A program made the translations under genes and the position numbers. Positions 23,928-32,617 of a stretch of DNA of 64,000 bases are shown piece after piece (position 1 is the stretch's first letter; every line of letters starts with the position of its first letter). The notes beneath the pieces were generated by a model that was not told the DNA's origin, made no database searches, and saw nothing but the letters and a program-made list of their open reading frames with translations. The DNA is from Pseudomonadota bacterium. Lineage in GTDB: Bacteria; Pseudomonadota; Gammaproteobacteria; Acidiferrobacterales; Acidiferrobacteraceae. The stretch lies in the NCBI GenBank assembly GCA_021827145.1, contig JAKAXK010000002.1:21484-85483 (forward strand), given 5' to 3'.

Positions 23928-24550
23928 GCCGCTTGGGTGTCGGGCTTGTTTTGTGGGTGGCCGCGATTGCGCCCGCGTGGGCCTTCCTTGGTGTGGGCGA
24001 TGTCACCTTCGATCCGCCAGTCCACGCGGAGTTGGTCAGTCTCCTGGATCAGACGCTGGCGATCTACCGGACGGCCTTGCGCGAAGTACGCAGGCTACAG
24101 ACCGTCGAAGCGACCCTGCGCGAGGCAAATCGCGACGCGCGGGCGATCGCCAACGGGGATCTCGTGCATTACGAGGAGCGTGGCCTGCCCCACGGTCTGC
24201 CGCAGGGCCTCAGGGCCTTGCTCGCAGACACGGGCGCGGCGGCGGATAACGCGGGTGATTACGGCGGCTATCTGCGCCAACAAGCGCATCGTTTCGGGCG
24301 GCTTGCGCGCCTGCGTTGGTTGCGGCGCGGCGTGCGGCGCGATGCACGGCTTTCGGCGACGAGTCTCGGTATGCGTACGAGCGGCGAGGTCACCGCGCGC
24401 TCGACTGCGACCCTCGCGGACCTGGCGGCCGTTCGTGCGCGCTCGCGGGAGCGGCGAGCTATACGCCGGGCCGCCGAACGACGCAATGCGCGTCACCTGC
24501 CGCGGGAGGCGGCATCCCTGTATCGAGCCTTTGGAGGAAGCCATGACTAG
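23924..24550 (+). CDS. VirB5/TrbJ-like exported protein
   Basis: Signal peptide ending AWA; GVGDVTFDPPVHAELVSLLDQTLAIYRTALREVRRLQ resembles TrbJ/VirB5 N-terminus. Confidence 0.6.
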   Translation: MSRLGVGLVLWVAAIAPAWAFLGVGDVTFDPPVHAELVSLLDQTLAIYRTALREVRRLQTVEATLREANRDARAIANGDLVHYEERGLPHGLPQGLRALLADTGAAADNAGDYGGYLRQQAHRFGRLARLRWLRRGVRRDARLSATSLGMRTSGEVTARSTATLADLAAVRARSRERRAIRRAAERRNARHLPREAASLYRAFGGSHD

Positions 24551-25631
24551 CGCATCGCTCGTAGCTCATCTCTTGGCGTACTTGGCGCCTGGCAGCGTGT
24601 ATCGGGCCGCCGCCCCGGTGGCGGACGTCTTGGTGCGCACGGTCACCCCATCGCTGTTTGTGATCGCCCTGTACACGCGGCTACTCGAGGCACAGATGGA
24701 TTCTGTGTCGGGATTTGGGCAGCTTGCCCGCGCGATCCGCGACATCGCCGTATGGGGTGTCGTGCTGGTCGCGTATTTCGCGGCCGGCAATCTGCTCATT
24801 CATTACTTGAACGCCTTGTACGCGGCCATGGGTCGCATAGGATCGCTGCGGGCGGTGGCCAAGCAGATGGCGGCTTTGCTCGACATCGCCGCCAAGGGTC
24901 CGAGCGGCGTGTGGGGCACCCTCAAAGAGATCAACGCCTTGCCCTTGCGTTTTGCGACCATCTTTATCTACTACACGACCCTTGTTATGACCACCTTCCT
25001 CGAGGCGCTGCTGCGTATCGCCCAGGCGATAGGGTATGAGTTTGCCTTTCTCTATGGGCTCATCGCCATCCCGCTTGCCCTGAGCCGGACCCTCTCTCTG
25101 GTGCGTGGTTTTGTAAAGCTCATGGGGTTCTTCATTCTTTGGCCCGTCGTGCAAGCCCTCTTGCTTGCCGTGTTCTCGCCGCTGTTCACGCACGCCGTGG
25201 CCGATCTCGAAGGGCTGCTTGGGCCGGCGGCTTACATGACCGTGTATGCGCACATGCTTTTTACCATTCTAAACATGATCTTGTGTGCCGTGCTGCTCGC
25301 CGCTCCTTACATTACGGCAGGGCTTATCGAGAACGCGGGTGCCGCCCAGCCCTTACTGGCCCCCTACCTAGGGGGGCTGTCCTCGGTTGGTGCGACGCTT
25401 GCCATGGGCGTCGGTCATGGGACCGCGCGGGCCGTCAACTACTACCTCTACGGTCCAGACGAGGATGTCCTTTCGGTGCCCCCGCGGCGCATGCCGGAGC
25501 TGCATGTGCCGCGCGATCCGGACTTCATCCCAAGCGGCCTGGACGGCGGCGCCGTGCATACGAACTACCTCAATCCGCAATACGACGGGCCACCCAGCAA
25601 TGATCAATCCGATGACTTTTCGCGACGCTGA
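24543..25631 (+). CDS. VirB6/TrbL-like polytopic membrane protein
   Basis: Multiple TM helices, ATG after RBS, operon position; longer upstream ORF overlaps the previous gene out of frame. Confidence 0.65.
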   Translation: MTSASLVAHLLAYLAPGSVYRAAAPVADVLVRTVTPSLFVIALYTRLLEAQMDSVSGFGQLARAIRDIAVWGVVLVAYFAAGNLLIHYLNALYAAMGRIGSLRAVAKQMAALLDIAAKGPSGVWGTLKEINALPLRFATIFIYYTTLVMTTFLEALLRIAQAIGYEFAFLYGLIAIPLALSRTLSLVRGFVKLMGFFILWPVVQALLLAVFSPLFTHAVADLEGLLGPAAYMTVYAHMLFTILNMILCAVLLAAPYITAGLIENAGAAQPLLAPYLGGLSSVGATLAMGVGHGTARAVNYYLYGPDEDVLSVPPRRMPELHVPRDPDFIPSGLDGGAVHTNYLNPQYDGPPSNDQSDDFSRR

Positions 25632-26238
25632 GGCGTGGGGCCGCCACGGCCCCCGGGGACTCTTGATGCAGCGTCTGGCGCGCTATGCGCTTCTTGGCTG
25701 GGCGCTGTTCGCCTGTGCGGCCGCCGCGTTCGTGGTGCTTGCGGTCGCAGCCGTGTGGCGCACGCCGCCCATAATCGCCATCGACCGCTCGGGAGCCGTT
25801 CTCGGGCGCATGCAATGGCTCGGCGCCGTTCATAGGTCGCGTCGCGAGGTTATGGCGGCATCCATGCGCTTCCTCCGCGACTACTTGAGCGCGAATGCCG
25901 CGACCGTGGTCCCGGACTATATCGAGGCCCTGGATATGATGGCGCCCGCACTCCGAAGCAGCACCGTAGCCGCACTTCGCAAGACGGCCTATCTCGCGCG
26001 GATCCGCGCGGCGCGTATGCGCTCGTGGCTCAGCTTCGCCAAGAACCCTGGCCACTCGCGCGTGGTGCGTAAGGGCGCACGGGAATTCCTGGTGCGCCTG
26101 CAGGGAACCCTCCATGTCGTTTTACCAAATGGGCGACGTTACCGTGAGCATTTCGCCTACCTTTTGACCGAGACCGCCGTGGCGCGCCGTCGCCACGACA
26201 CCGCTGGCTTACGCATCGAAGGAATCAACCCCCTATGA
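25600..26238 (+). CDS. VirB8/TrbF/TraE-like bitopic protein
   Basis: Single N-terminal TM then periplasmic domain beginning RTPPIIAIDRSGAVLG; operon position. Confidence 0.55.
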   Translation: MINPMTFRDAEAWGRHGPRGLLMQRLARYALLGWALFACAAAAFVVLAVAAVWRTPPIIAIDRSGAVLGRMQWLGAVHRSRREVMAASMRFLRDYLSANAATVVPDYIEALDMMAPALRSSTVAALRKTAYLARIRAARMRSWLSFAKNPGHSRVVRKGAREFLVRLQGTLHVVLPNGRRYREHFAYLLTETAVARRRHDTAGLRIEGINPL

Positions 26239-26993
26239 CAGCCCACTTGCCTAGCCTTTTGCGGCCCCTTGCGCCCCGCGCCCGCGTGGTGATTTTGCGA
26301 CCCTACCGTGCGCTTTCGGCCACGATCGTGCCCAACCTCGGCTTGCGTCTCGTGTTTCCCCATGGCGCGCAGGCGGCCCGCTTCGCGATTACCAACCCGG
26401 TGTTCTCCGCGGCGAGGCTTGGCCGGCGCGCCATCTTGATTACCGTGGCGCACGGTCTTGCGCGACGCTATTGCGGGAACGCATACATGGATTGGCAAGG
26501 GTTCTATGTGTCTTTGCTCGTTTGCACGAGCGCCCGCGGACGACGTTATACGAGTGACATCCTTTTTCGGCGCCCTAAGACTCTCAAGCCTCCGATGGTG
26601 TCGCGTCCCACGCCCCCCTCGCCTTGGGCCATGGCCATGGCCTACGCGGCCTTCGGGCCCGTCCCGCGGGTCACGATCCGCAAGCGTGTGGTATTGAGGC
26701 AGGGCGCAAGGGTTGCGGTGTTGCGGGTGCGACGTATGTGGCTCTTGCCGCGCCGCGTCATCCTCGGCTTTGCGCTTTCGCAAACGAGTGGTCTGCCGGA
26801 CGCCGTCGACAGCGCGGTTCTCTATCGTGGTCGCCGCCGCTGGCGGCAGGTTCCGGCGGCACTGAGTTGTGTCACGAGCGCCGCGGCAAGCGGGAGAGCG
26901 TGCGCGTTGGCGTTGGTCCGGCCCCAGGGCCCTGTGAGGCGTTGGCACTTGGTCGTCATGACCACCTTGGGGCCCGCGCGCCTGTCATGGTGA
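26235..26993 (+). CDS. Putative VirB9/TraK-like T4SS component
   Basis: Position between VirB8- and VirB10-like genes; VVILRPYRALSATIVPNLGLRLVFPHG segment; no clear signal peptide. Confidence 0.4.
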   Translation: MTAHLPSLLRPLAPRARVVILRPYRALSATIVPNLGLRLVFPHGAQAARFAITNPVFSAARLGRRAILITVAHGLARRYCGNAYMDWQGFYVSLLVCTSARGRRYTSDILFRRPKTLKPPMVSRPTPPSPWAMAMAYAAFGPVPRVTIRKRVVLRQGARVAVLRVRRMWLLPRRVILGFALSQTSGLPDAVDSAVLYRGRRRWRQVPAALSCVTSAAASGRACALALVRPQGPVRRWHLVVMTTLGPARLSW

Positions 26994-27709
26994 TCGCGAC
27001 TATGCCCACGCCGACAGCCATCGTGCATCGCCTCATGAGCGCGCGGCCGGCGGCGCCATCGATGCTTCATCGCCTACTGGCGTTGACCGGGGGCCGACGA
27101 CGGCCATCGATGCGGCGAGCGCCTGTCAGGCACCCGACTGCGGTGCCGCCGTTTGCCATGGTCCCGGCGCGTGGCAGGCCGGTGATATTGGCCGATGCGC
27201 CGCATGGTCTCGGCATCCGCGCCGGCACATGGATCGAGGTCGCGCTACGCCGCGGCGTCACCGATGTCGATTCGATGCTGGTCGTTTTGCATGTGGAGTC
27301 GCCCGTGCGGGGGCTGTGGGGCGTTTTACCGATGGGCACGCGGCTCTTGGGGCGGGTGGAAGGGCGTGCCTTGGGGCGCATTCGCATCGCCGTAAACGAA
27401 GCGATTACGCCGCGCGGTCGGCGTGTGCCGCTCGACGCGGCGGCCTTCGGGGCTGATCGAGACCCGGGCCTGCCGGCCTATGTCGTGGGGGGGCGCCGCA
27501 AGACAGTCCTCGCGGCCTTTGCCTCATCGGTTGTGGAGGGTGTCGACGCCCTCATCGGGTCGGCCGCGGCGCAGGGTTCGGCGCAGGCGGCGGCGCTCGG
27601 GCAGGTGGGCACGACCACTCTGAATGCGGCGGCCTTCGGGCGCGCCCCGCGCCGGATTCTTTATGCCCCGGCGCAGAACGCTTATGTCCAAACACAAAAG
27701 GGGTCGTGA
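26987..27709 (+). CDS. VirB10/TrbI-like protein, C-terminal domain only
   Basis: LPMGTRLLGRVEGRALGRIRIAVNEAITPRGRRVPLDAAAFGADRDPGLPAYV matches VirB10 C-domain pattern; no N-terminal TM. Confidence 0.7.
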   Translation: MVIATMPTPTAIVHRLMSARPAAPSMLHRLLALTGGRRRPSMRRAPVRHPTAVPPFAMVPARGRPVILADAPHGLGIRAGTWIEVALRRGVTDVDSMLVVLHVESPVRGLWGVLPMGTRLLGRVEGRALGRIRIAVNEAITPRGRRVPLDAAAFGADRDPGLPAYVVGGRRKTVLAAFASSVVEGVDALIGSAAAQGSAQAAALGQVGTTTLNAAAFGRAPRRILYAPAQNAYVQTQKGS

Positions 27710-28263: not shown

Positions 28264-29678
28264 ACACGAGAAATCCTACTCTCTGGATGATTGTTGCGGG
28301 CCTGGCTCTGAATGGGTGTCGCTTGGGCAGCCCGGCGTCGCCCACCGCCCTGCCTTCGGGCTTGATCGAGGGTTATGTGGTGAGCGGCGGTCCGGTGGCG
28401 GGCGCATCAGTCACAATCACGGGTCCGGAAGGCCCTTTGGGTGCCACGCGCACGGATGACAGCGGCCGCTTTGCGCTGGAAGTCCAAAGTCTTGATGCGA
28501 CGCTCGAGGTTTCCGCAAGCGGTGGCTCCTATGTCGGGGCGGGCGGCGCCACTGTGACATCCAGTGTCTTGCGCGGCATCTTTTCTTACCAAAACGGAAG
28601 TGGCGTCCAGGTGGCGGTCGATCCCCTGACCACGGCCATGGTCGCCTATGACGGCTATCTCCGGGGCCAGGGCACTGACGTCCCCGCGGCTGCGGCGCAG
28701 GCCCGGGGCGCCTTTGTTGGCTGGTTAGGCTTCGACCCCACGACCACGCAGCCCGTGTTGCCGGCAGACGTCGGTACCGCCCCGACGCTCGGGGTCGACC
28801 TGCGCTACGGCCTCGTGCTCGCGGCGTTTTCGCGCCTGGCGCGCGCGAACGCCACTACGACCGCGTCCGCCGCGTCCGTCATGACCGACGATATCGGCTA
28901 TGACGGGGTGCTGAACGGCGTGGGGGCCAACGGCCCCTTGAGGTTCGGCACCCTGCCCTTGTCGACGTCGGTGTATCGACAGGGGATCGCCGAGGCCTTG
29001 CTGCAAAGTGCCGCGGCGGCCAAGCCGGTGTCCGCCGACGCGCTCCCGGGACCCAATGCGGCGGCCCTTCTTGCCTACGCCAAGACGCTCGCGCAATCCA
29101 CCTCGCCCGTATTCGGGTTGGCGCCCGCGCCCACCTTTCCCGGTAGCAGCCTTTCCTTGTCGTTGTCGCCGTGGCCCGCCTGGACGCATGGGTCGGTGAC
29201 GATAAGCGGATCCACAAGCGACCCCTACGGCTTGCCCGTCGCGGTCACGATCGCTATTGATCACAAGCCCTACCAGACCCTGACGGCGGCGCCTGCCTTC
29301 GCCTTCGTGGTGAACACGAAGGCGTTCGCCGATGGTACTCATGTGTTGTCGGTGAGCGCCGATGACGCGGCCGGGGAGACTGCGTCCTACGATGGGCCGC
29401 TTGCCGTCGACAACACGCCGCCGCTCGCCTGTCTGTCCGTGATCCAGCCCACTCTGGGAGGCGTCCTGCTCGCCGGGAGTTGGCAGGATCTTTCCGGAGT
29501 GACCGCGGCGAGCGCCGACGGGGCTGCGCTCTCCATAGGCTCCAGTGGTACCTGGCAGGGCGAGGTGCCGACGCCATTGCCACCGTCCACGGCCGTCACT
29601 TTTGTCGATGCCGCCGGCAACCAGCGGGACTATTCGTGGGCCTTGGATGGCCAGAGCAACCCGGCGCCTTGCCCATGA
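28260..29678 (+). CDS. Lipoprotein with CarbopepD_reg/Ig-like domains
   Basis: LALNGC lipobox; GLIEGYVVSGGPVAGASVTITGPEG...TDDSGRFALEV; two Ig-like segments; TTG start overlaps upstream stop. Confidence 0.65.
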   Translation: MNTRNPTLWMIVAGLALNGCRLGSPASPTALPSGLIEGYVVSGGPVAGASVTITGPEGPLGATRTDDSGRFALEVQSLDATLEVSASGGSYVGAGGATVTSSVLRGIFSYQNGSGVQVAVDPLTTAMVAYDGYLRGQGTDVPAAAAQARGAFVGWLGFDPTTTQPVLPADVGTAPTLGVDLRYGLVLAAFSRLARANATTTASAASVMTDDIGYDGVLNGVGANGPLRFGTLPLSTSVYRQGIAEALLQSAAAAKPVSADALPGPNAAALLAYAKTLAQSTSPVFGLAPAPTFPGSSLSLSLSPWPAWTHGSVTISGSTSDPYGLPVAVTIAIDHKPYQTLTAAPAFAFVVNTKAFADGTHVLSVSADDAAGETASYDGPLAVDNTPPLACLSVIQPTLGGVLLAGSWQDLSGVTAASADGAALSIGSSGTWQGEVPTPLPPSTAVTFVDAAGNQRDYSWALDGQSNPAPCP

Positions 29679-29731: not shown

Positions 29732-30961
29732 ATGCTCGACACGGATGTCGGGCGATGGCCTCAAATCAAGGATGAATTCGGTATGGAAACTCTCGCCATT
29801 CCATTGCCCGCCAACCTTCCACCGGATGTGTGCACGGAGATATCCAAGCGCGCGTGCTATTGTGATACGTCGATCCTGAAGTCTCGTTACCGGCAGGACT
29901 CCAATTGTCTGGAAGTCGATCTGCAAGGTCCTAGTGCCAACGGCGATGTCGCCGCCAAGCTCGAGCACTTGATCGGAAAGATGCAGGGCGAGCGGCTCGC
30001 CGTGACGCCGCGGGTTCTGCGCGATCGGACACGCGAGGTGAGTGATTTCGTGCTGACCGCTTACGACCAGCTTGTGACTCGCGGTGATGTCTGGACCTCC
30101 GGCGGGTCCGGGGTGGTCGGCCGTAGCGGTGCGTTCATGCGGCTCCTGGGCCGCTTGGACGCAGCCCTAGAGCGTCTCGCGGTGCGCGATTTTCGCGCTG
30201 TCCCTCAGTCCTATAACTCGCTCGTTCCGAGCGATTGGCTGAGGCGCGCGGGTTACTTCGGCTCGTTTTCCCATTCCGTCACCTTCGCGGTCCACCTGAA
30301 GGAGGATTTCGAGGCGATCGAGCGTTTTGGGAAGCGCCATCGTCAGGGGGAGAGTCCCACGTTCGAGGACATAAGGGAGCTTGCGCCCCCCGAGTATTGC
30401 CTGTCGCCGGCCGTGTGTTATCACACCTACGGCGCGCTCATGGGGCAAAGCCTTTCCGTGAGGACGGTCTCGGCTTTTACCGGGCACGGGCGATGTTTCC
30501 GGTATGAGTCGAAGAATCTCACGGGCCTTGATCGCCTATGGGAGTTTTCGATGCGCGAGATCGTATGGCTCGGCGACCGTGAGGCGGTGCTCGGCGCGCG
30601 CGAGGCGGCTATAAACGCTGTGTGGAGACTTGTCGATCTCCTCGATCTATCGGCGCGCCTCGAGACTGCCTGCGACCCGTTTTTTGCGAACGATTTCCCG
30701 TCCCTGCGTTTTTTTCAGCTCGCCTATGACCTGAAATATGAGTTGCAGGTGGATGTGGCGCCGGGCACTTCGATCGCGTGCGCGTCCTTCAATTACCACG
30801 ATCGGTTTTTTGGAAATCGATTCGAGATCACCGCTCAGGGTGATGTCGCCCATACGGGGTGCGCCGCGTTCGGACTCGAGCGCTTGCTGTATGCGTGTTT
30901 TTGCCAGCACGGGCTCGAGCGTGCCGAGGAGCTGGTTGAGAACGCGGTGAGCCGTCTCTAG
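29732..30961 (+). CDS. Amino acid--[carrier protein] ligase-like protein (SerRS-like class II aaRS homologue)
   Basis: LSPAVCYHTYGAL, CFRYESKNLTGLDRLWEFSMREIVWLG (motif 2-like), DPFF, ACASFNYHDRFFG, AHTGCAAFGLERL (motif 3-like). Confidence 0.8.
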   Translation: MLDTDVGRWPQIKDEFGMETLAIPLPANLPPDVCTEISKRACYCDTSILKSRYRQDSNCLEVDLQGPSANGDVAAKLEHLIGKMQGERLAVTPRVLRDRTREVSDFVLTAYDQLVTRGDVWTSGGSGVVGRSGAFMRLLGRLDAALERLAVRDFRAVPQSYNSLVPSDWLRRAGYFGSFSHSVTFAVHLKEDFEAIERFGKRHRQGESPTFEDIRELAPPEYCLSPAVCYHTYGALMGQSLSVRTVSAFTGHGRCFRYESKNLTGLDRLWEFSMREIVWLGDREAVLGAREAAINAVWRLVDLLDLSARLETACDPFFANDFPSLRFFQLAYDLKYELQVDVAPGTSIACASFNYHDRFFGNRFEITAQGDVAHTGCAAFGLERLLYACFCQHGLERAEELVENAVSRL

Positions 30962-31041: not shown

Positions 31042-32043
31042 ATGAATATTCAGCCCATGGAGTCTTTCGATGAGGTGGTGAACCCTGACCTGGATGAAGT
31101 GAGCGCGCTTATGCGCGCGAACTGGACACCGCCATGCTGGCTCTACGAACGGGAGCTGTTGGCCATGCATATCATGAGGCCTACCGCGGATCCGACCATG
31201 GCGGTGGGGCTGCGCGCCAAGAATGGCGAACTCGCTTCTTATCTCGCGTTCGTGCCGATGCGCCTGCGGGTCCACGGGCGCATCTACAAGGCCGTGTTCG
31301 CAAGCTTCTTCACCGTTTCCAGCCATTTCCGGCGTCACCGTCTGAGCGATCACCAACAGGGGCTCATGGTGGACCGCGCGCGCGACCGCGGCTACGAGGT
31401 CTACACCGCCATCACGGTCGCCGGGACGCCCGCCAATCAGACGGTGGCACGGGCGTTCGGGGCGCGCGGGCTTCCCGTGCGCGCCGCGCACAACTTTCGC
31501 TATCTCGCGGGGACGGGAGCCATCGTGGCGAGTCGTCTTGGGTCGAGCGATAGGGATCATGTGCGACCTTATGCACCCAGCGACGACGGGGCGGCGTTCG
31601 CGCTGCTGTCAGCGGCTGCTGCTCGCGCACCGCTCGCCCACGTGGTGGAGCGCGAGGATATCGATTTCTCTCTGCGGGGCCGACCCCGGGTCAAGACCTA
31701 CGTCTACGAGAGTGATGGCGCCGTCACGGGCCTCATAAGCATGTCCTTGCTCCCGGTCGTGTCGGGGCAGGTGGGTCTGAATGCCTATGTGGAGGCGCTC
31801 GCGCTCGGGCGCCTGGAGTCTTCGGCGCGCACGGCCTTCGTCGATACGGTGCTGCGCTCGGTGCTTGCCGAGGGCGCGCAGGCGGTCATGGTGCCGGATA
31901 CGGGCTGTGGCGATCAGGAGGTGTTCAGGCGCCTCGGATTCCGCGCCGCTCCGCGCAAGCTGCGGCTCCTGCTGGCGCCTTTGCGTTCCGATGTGACCGA
32001 CCTGCCGGACACCGTGGATGGTTTCTGTCTCGACGTGTTTTGA
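31042..32043 (+). CDS. GNAT-like acyl/aminoacyltransferase
   Basis: AVGLRAKNGELASYLAFVPMRLRVHGRIYKAVFASFFTVSSHFRRHRLSDHQQGLMVDRARDRG GNAT-like core. Confidence 0.55.
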   Translation: MNIQPMESFDEVVNPDLDEVSALMRANWTPPCWLYERELLAMHIMRPTADPTMAVGLRAKNGELASYLAFVPMRLRVHGRIYKAVFASFFTVSSHFRRHRLSDHQQGLMVDRARDRGYEVYTAITVAGTPANQTVARAFGARGLPVRAAHNFRYLAGTGAIVASRLGSSDRDHVRPYAPSDDGAAFALLSAAAARAPLAHVVEREDIDFSLRGRPRVKTYVYESDGAVTGLISMSLLPVVSGQVGLNAYVEALALGRLESSARTAFVDTVLRSVLAEGAQAVMVPDTGCGDQEVFRRLGFRAAPRKLRLLLAPLRSDVTDLPDTVDGFCLDVF

Positions 32044-32044
32044 T

Positions 32045-32617
32045 ATGGCTAATGGTCTAAAGGAGGGCTTGCGGGCGCTGCTTGCGGGGCTTGGGACCGT
32101 TATTGCGCTGCCCGCCTTGGCCCTTTCCGTCTGGGGTCGGTCGGACGAGGGCTTCGTCTGGGGCGGTCAGGCGCTGGCCCTGGTGCCGGGGGCCGTGGGC
32201 AACGCCGCGCGCGCAGCCTTTTATGGACGCACGCTGGCGCTCTTCGAGCCCGGCGCGACGATCCATTTCGGCAGCTATTTCTCGAAGCGCGGCGCGCGGG
32301 TCTCTGCCGGCGCCGGGATCGGGGCGTATTGCATCATAGGTCTGGTGGATCTCGGTCCCCGGGTAAGGGTCGCAAGCCGCGTATCCATCACCTCGGGTCT
32401 TCATTACCACGGGAGCGCCGCTTGCGGCGTCGGGGGTCGGGATGTGGTCGAACGCGTAACCATCGGTGCCAACACCTGGATCGGAGAGGCGGCGGTCGTT
32501 GGCGCCAATGTGGGCGCCAATTGTATCGTCGGCATGGGCTCGGTGGTGGTGCAGCCGGTCCCGGACGACTCCACGGTCCTGGGCAATCCCGCGCGCCGCA
32601 TTCCGTCGGCGGCGTGA
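32045..32617 (+). CDS. Left-handed beta-helix (hexapeptide) acyltransferase
   Basis: Hexapeptide repeats VTIGANTWIGEAAVVGANVGANCIVGMGSVVVQPVPDDSTVLGNPARRI. Confidence 0.8.
   Translation: MANGLKEGLRALLAGLGTVIALPALALSVWGRSDEGFVWGGQALALVPGAVGNAARAAFYGRTLALFEPGATIHFGSYFSKRGARVSAGAGIGAYCIIGLVDLGPRVRVASRVSITSGLHYHGSAACGVGGRDVVERVTIGANTWIGEAAVVGANVGANCIVGMGSVVVQPVPDDSTVLGNPARRIPSAA

Follow-up and report, generated by a model that had tools for sequence, protein, structure and literature searches.

The question posed by this locus is what an amino acid:carrier protein ligase homologue would load when no carrier-protein gene lies beside it, and to what end; the role of carrier loading by such ligases was called unknown in a 2022 review (PMC9437257). 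The window, meaning the whole 64-kb stretch of DNA analysed here, had been described preliminarily as encoding a SerRS-like ligase homologue that would act on a non-canonical acceptor. The ligase gene and its N-terminal domain are located as follows.

29783..30961, + strand: putative N-extended SerRS-like amino acid:carrier protein ligase (392 aa), assigned from profile and PDB matches, alignments and a tree
29783..30052, + strand: N-terminal domain of the ligase, residues 1-90, containing RACYCD and common only to other N-extended ligases

The ORF is genuine and occurs once in its 2.8 Mb draft genome, and most congeners of the window's genus (Acidiferrobacter, by inference) encode a 69-87% identical protein at a locus. 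Translation more likely begins at the ATG at 29783 (METLAIPLP...), which is preceded by AAGGA, than at 29732, since in several congeners in-frame stops lie just 5' of that Met. A class II SerRS-like catalytic core is indicated by PRK07080 (148 bits) and by Bll0957, the best PDB match (E 4e-26 from the sequence alone, 2e-41 from the family profile), which supports the family assignment of the preliminary description; the motif 2- and motif 3-like segments and the Cys motifs that it named (AVCYHTY and AHTGC) are likewise found in the ORF. In the profile search it had recommended, the NCBIfam model PRK07080 (aa--[ACP] ligase) scores 147.8 bits, as compared to 87.5 and 67.3 bits for archaeal-type SerRS models, and the resemblance to a ligase is therefore not due to chance. 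The score is nevertheless far below the PRK07080 equivalog cut-off of 357 bits in NCBIfam. On sequence grounds, the protein is filed here as belonging to a sister clade of the Bll0957-type ligases, not as an equivalog.

Three positions of Bll0957 (C131, E176 and C279), which we take to be its zinc ligands, have aligned Cys, Glu and Cys equivalents that are invariant across the window ligase's family:

30416..30418, + strand: C212 of SPAVCYH, aligned with Bll0957 C131
30557..30559, + strand: E259 of MREIV, aligned with Bll0957 E176
30860..30862, + strand: C360 of AHTGC, aligned with Bll0957 C279

The N-terminal region, which the preliminary description had put at about 100 residues, is genuine and conserved across phyla: it is kept from Zixiibacteriota and Myxococcota to the window's genus, and also in a second ligase group. 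The domain of ~90 residues, predicted to fold as beta-alpha-beta-beta-alpha-beta (whole-ligase model, pLDDT 78), finds a match in most of the relatives whose profile scores (~240 bits or more) clearly exceed those of the Bll0957-type ligases. The Bll0957-type ligases lack it, and their matches begin near profile position 90-110 or later. No relatives of the domain were detected in Pfam or the PDB. Foldseek and profile alignments extend slightly N-terminal of the ligase core, and descent of the domain from the archaeal SerRS N-terminus was considered; it found no support, as a domain-only profile scored the one SerRS fragment covering this region no higher than shuffles.

In a ligase tree rooted with two archaeal SerRSs, the Bll0957-type ligases form one clade (support 100/99), separate from a second that holds the N-extended ligases together with other divergent ones (base support 92/67, with some long end branches).

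Search of the window bears out the statement that no carrier-protein ORF fits the gaps flanking the ligase: there is none anywhere in the 64 kb, and none adjoins the ligase in any congener examined. The genome encodes four PP-binding proteins, and an orthologue of the carriers that accompany this ligase in other phyla lies on another contig:

G000:C127, match 28537-28773 (L002 1456-1716): in-trans carrier candidate, orthologue of the cassette carriers

This protein shows 46-55% identity to the cassette carriers and has in common with them an invariant phosphopantetheine-bearing Ser in G-x-x-S-x-N. Against a cassette-carrier profile of seven rows, one of them the window genome's own copy, it scores 131 bits, as compared to ~30 bits for the ordinary ACP of the same genome. 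Each of the genus's 13 ligase-bearing genomes has such a carrier (109-131 bits versus ~30 for ordinary ACPs), and the position of the carrier locus is conserved, adjoining a gene for a REC-GGDEF protein. The carrier gene is thus adjacent to the ligase gene in other phyla and in trans in the window's genus, as expected of a dedicated carrier.

The sole congener without the ligase, G013, has also lost the carrier gene from its own locus, with the flanks intact. In this genome the ligase operon is missing between equally intact flanks, a lipoprotein gene and the sigma-factor gene found at window 32622. Since carrier and operon are unlinked, the loss of both argues that they serve one pathway, although it is a single event. 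Sequence comparison presents the ligase, the carrier and the two genes that follow the ligase as one conserved unit, lost together once. Against a single pathway, the sister genus (G014, G016 and G017; three of three genomes) has the carrier without the ligase and without the gene that follows it, and the carrier can therefore exist without a ligase of the window type. There (L067-L069) it is retained beside the REC-GGDEF gene, and two of the three genomes have Asp in place of the S-x-N Asn that never varies among the cassette carriers.

These observations bear on two other accounts of the ligase. One takes it for a true tRNA synthetase, or for a SerRS paralogue acting on tRNA. Archaeal-type SerRSs are indeed its next-best PDB sequence matches after Bll0957 and among its best fold matches; however, the aa:CP ligase model outscores those of SerRS, no sequence similarity to the SerRS N-terminal region is detectable in the N-terminal domain, and relatives carry a carrier gene adjacent to the ligase. 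The placement with true aminoacyl-tRNA synthetases that would have told against the preliminary description is not seen, the two archaeal SerRSs falling outside all ligases on the rooted tree. On scores and tree a true synthetase is rejected, and activity on tRNA in any form is barely credible. The other account, put forward in the preliminary description, is that a ligase without a carrier aminoacylates a non-canonical acceptor such as the product of a neighbouring gene. This would fit the lack of a carrier ORF in the window and beside the ligase in the congeners examined, but every ligase-bearing congener has the dedicated orthologue in trans, the same carrier is adjacent in other phyla, and it was lost with the operon in G013. 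The C127 orthologue disposes of the idea of a missing carrier, and its discovery elsewhere in the genome was the very outcome that the preliminary description had named as contrary to its proposal. A non-canonical acceptor is accordingly very improbable, and the ligase probably loads the C127 carrier with an amino acid, as judged from the orthology.

What becomes of the loaded carrier is suggested by the genes that follow the ligase. Judged by homology, the N-extended SerRS-like aa:CP ligase gene opens an operon of three genes. The ligase gene (29783-30961) is followed after an 80 bp gap by 31042-32043 and, 1 bp further on, by 32045-32617:

31042..32043, + strand: second operon gene, NMT-like protein of two predicted tandem GNAT domains, 333 aa
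32045..32617, + strand: third operon gene, putative hexapeptide-repeat (LbH) acyltransferase, 1 bp after the NMT-like gene

In a scan of GTDB genomes, Zixiibacteriota, GN15 and Myxococcota yield full-length ligase orthologues that are 37-54% identical. ORF clustering shows a conserved cassette order in Zixiibacteriota, GN15 and one Myxococcota genome: carrier (~77-80 aa) directly upstream of the ligase, then the NMT-like protein ("GNAT", 333 aa) and the LbH protein (200 aa). The window's genus retains the last three genes in the same order, with the carrier on another contig. The NMT-like gene occurs in exactly 12 of 60 relatives, those with a complete ligase gene of the window type; G012, whose ligase contig ends inside the gene, falls outside the 12. 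In the Zixiibacteriota phylum the NMT-like gene is found in only 6 of 134 genomes, and all six carry the cassette, L174 being the sixth copy. The NMT-associated ligases form a clade (100/99) that spans three phyla, a distribution that points to the cassette having moved horizontally.

Several arrangements depart from this order. Some Myxococcota carrier-ligase pairs have no NMT-like gene, a point against the pathway proposed below; one such operon (L175 6883-9799) reads carrier-ligase-LbH-LbH. One cassette (L030 8001-11227) has two tandem NMT-like genes, and its ligase is interrupted by an in-frame stop within the N-terminal domain. Upstream of the window operon, a conserved gene block (24543-27706) that includes a TrbI-like (conjugation) protein is also upstream in congeners and present in the operon-less sister genus.

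Sequence and model both indicate that the second operon gene encodes a full-length bacterial relative of eukaryotic N-myristoyltransferase (NMT). The predicted structure (pLDDT 92, with low values at the last residues) has NMTs as all of its top 50 Foldseek matches in the PDB (E ~1e-22, TM ~0.8), as expected of the tandem-GNAT NMT fold. In a sequence-profile search of the PDB only NMTs are significant; the best match (E 1e-7) covers residues 31-310 and thus both halves, and the next GNAT follows at E 0.085. The Pfam NMT model gives the window protein 24.0 bits, just under the gathering threshold of 25, and both NMT and NMT_C match several members of the family.

The likeness may extend to the catalytic elements. 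Human NMT1 uses its C-terminal carboxylate as catalytic base, with an oxyanion hole made by Phe247-Leu248 (PMC7048800). The window protein has an aligned F-L strand at the position of NMT1 Phe247-Leu248, together with an aligned Tyr, and it ends in a conserved FCLDVF at its very C-terminus. The last residues of all 18 NMT-like proteins read (L/M)(D/E)(V/L)(Y/F)-COOH, where NMT has its catalytic carboxylate, and this conservation would fit a base of the kind described (PMC7048800). The two-domain tandem GNAT fold is matched over nearly the whole length, but the neighbour differs from eukaryotic NMT in being bacterial, in its ~15% identity, in its operonic association with an aa:CP ligase and in leaving the N-terminal loop region of NMT unmatched. 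Prokaryotes are stated to lack NMT (PMC5868815), and a search of the open-access literature for bacterial NMT homologues or a ligase/NMT-like cassette returned nothing relevant.

In the scheme that follows, we infer from these relationships which amino acid is used, in what order the steps run and what the final acceptor is. The window ligase resembles the Bll0957-type (PRK07080; PDB 4h2w, 3mey) in catalytic core, zinc ligands and a dedicated carrier protein, and by analogy it is expected to transfer an aminoacyl group to phosphopantetheine in an ATP-dependent manner. It differs in its extra N-terminal domain, separate clade and sub-equivalog score, in its operon partners, one NMT-like and the other an LbH acyltransferase, and in its in-trans carrier. 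The ligase would activate a small amino acid with ATP, probably glycine by analogy with Bll0957 (or Ala), and load it onto the phosphopantetheine of the carrier encoded in trans. Next, most likely, the NMT-like enzyme would acylate the amino acid on the carrier at its free amino group, much as NMT acylates an N-terminal glycine; this step, taken alone, is offered as a tentative proposal with somewhat less than even odds. The LbH enzyme could then pass the product on to an envelope glycan or lipid, at a hydroxyl or an amine. GN15-type cassettes (L027 and L174) sit within exopolysaccharide-type gene clusters, with surroundings that read as UDP-glucose dehydrogenase-, epimerase-, glycosyltransferase- and polysaccharide-deacetylase-like genes, and this lends slight support to an envelope acceptor. 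LbH functions are broad, and the window's LbH partner could be an ordinary O-acetyltransferase. The complete sequence, in which an NMT-family member acylates the ligase-tethered amino acid and LbH attaches the product to the envelope, would be a previously undescribed route and is a possibility put forward with caution. It would work like DltA-DltC and AlmE-AlmF, where an amino acid is activated, put on a small carrier and used to decorate the envelope. DltA and AlmE are presumably not SerRS homologues, nor their transferases NMT-like.

The steps could instead run in another order, with the aminoacyl-S-carrier as donor, the NMT-like enzyme moving the aminoacyl group to an amine or peptide, and LbH acting as an independent acetyltransferase. 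The phosphopantetheine arm is common to CoA and the holo-carrier, GNATs take their acyl groups from CoA, and the N-terminal GNAT half is well conserved in its thioester-carbonyl (F-L) strand, all of which speak for such a donor role. Against it, NMT itself acts on the amine of a glycine (PMC7048800), in keeping with a glycyl-carrier as acceptor, and the cassette contains no conserved gene for a peptide or amine acceptor. We regard use of the aminoacyl-carrier as donor as the less likely of the two orders, and favour acylation of the carrier-bound amine.

If acylation of the carrier-bound amine is correct, the resulting N-acyl-aminoacyl-carrier route would be a possible bacterial origin or sister of NMT chemistry. 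The cassette links the question of what these ligases are for with the stated absence of NMT from prokaryotes, in that it points to the carrier, to the enzyme of the following step and to the likely last enzyme, and the NMT-like operon partner suggests a testable answer to the purpose of amino acid loading.

A second group of N-extended ligases is found in Pseudomonadota (L107-L116, L119 and L120). Here, a PP-binding carrier is encoded directly downstream in several loci (for example, L112 7919-8167, - strand), and a GNAT-like protein of ~370 aa is often nearby. The pairing of these ligases with carriers and GNAT-type enzymes may thus be general.
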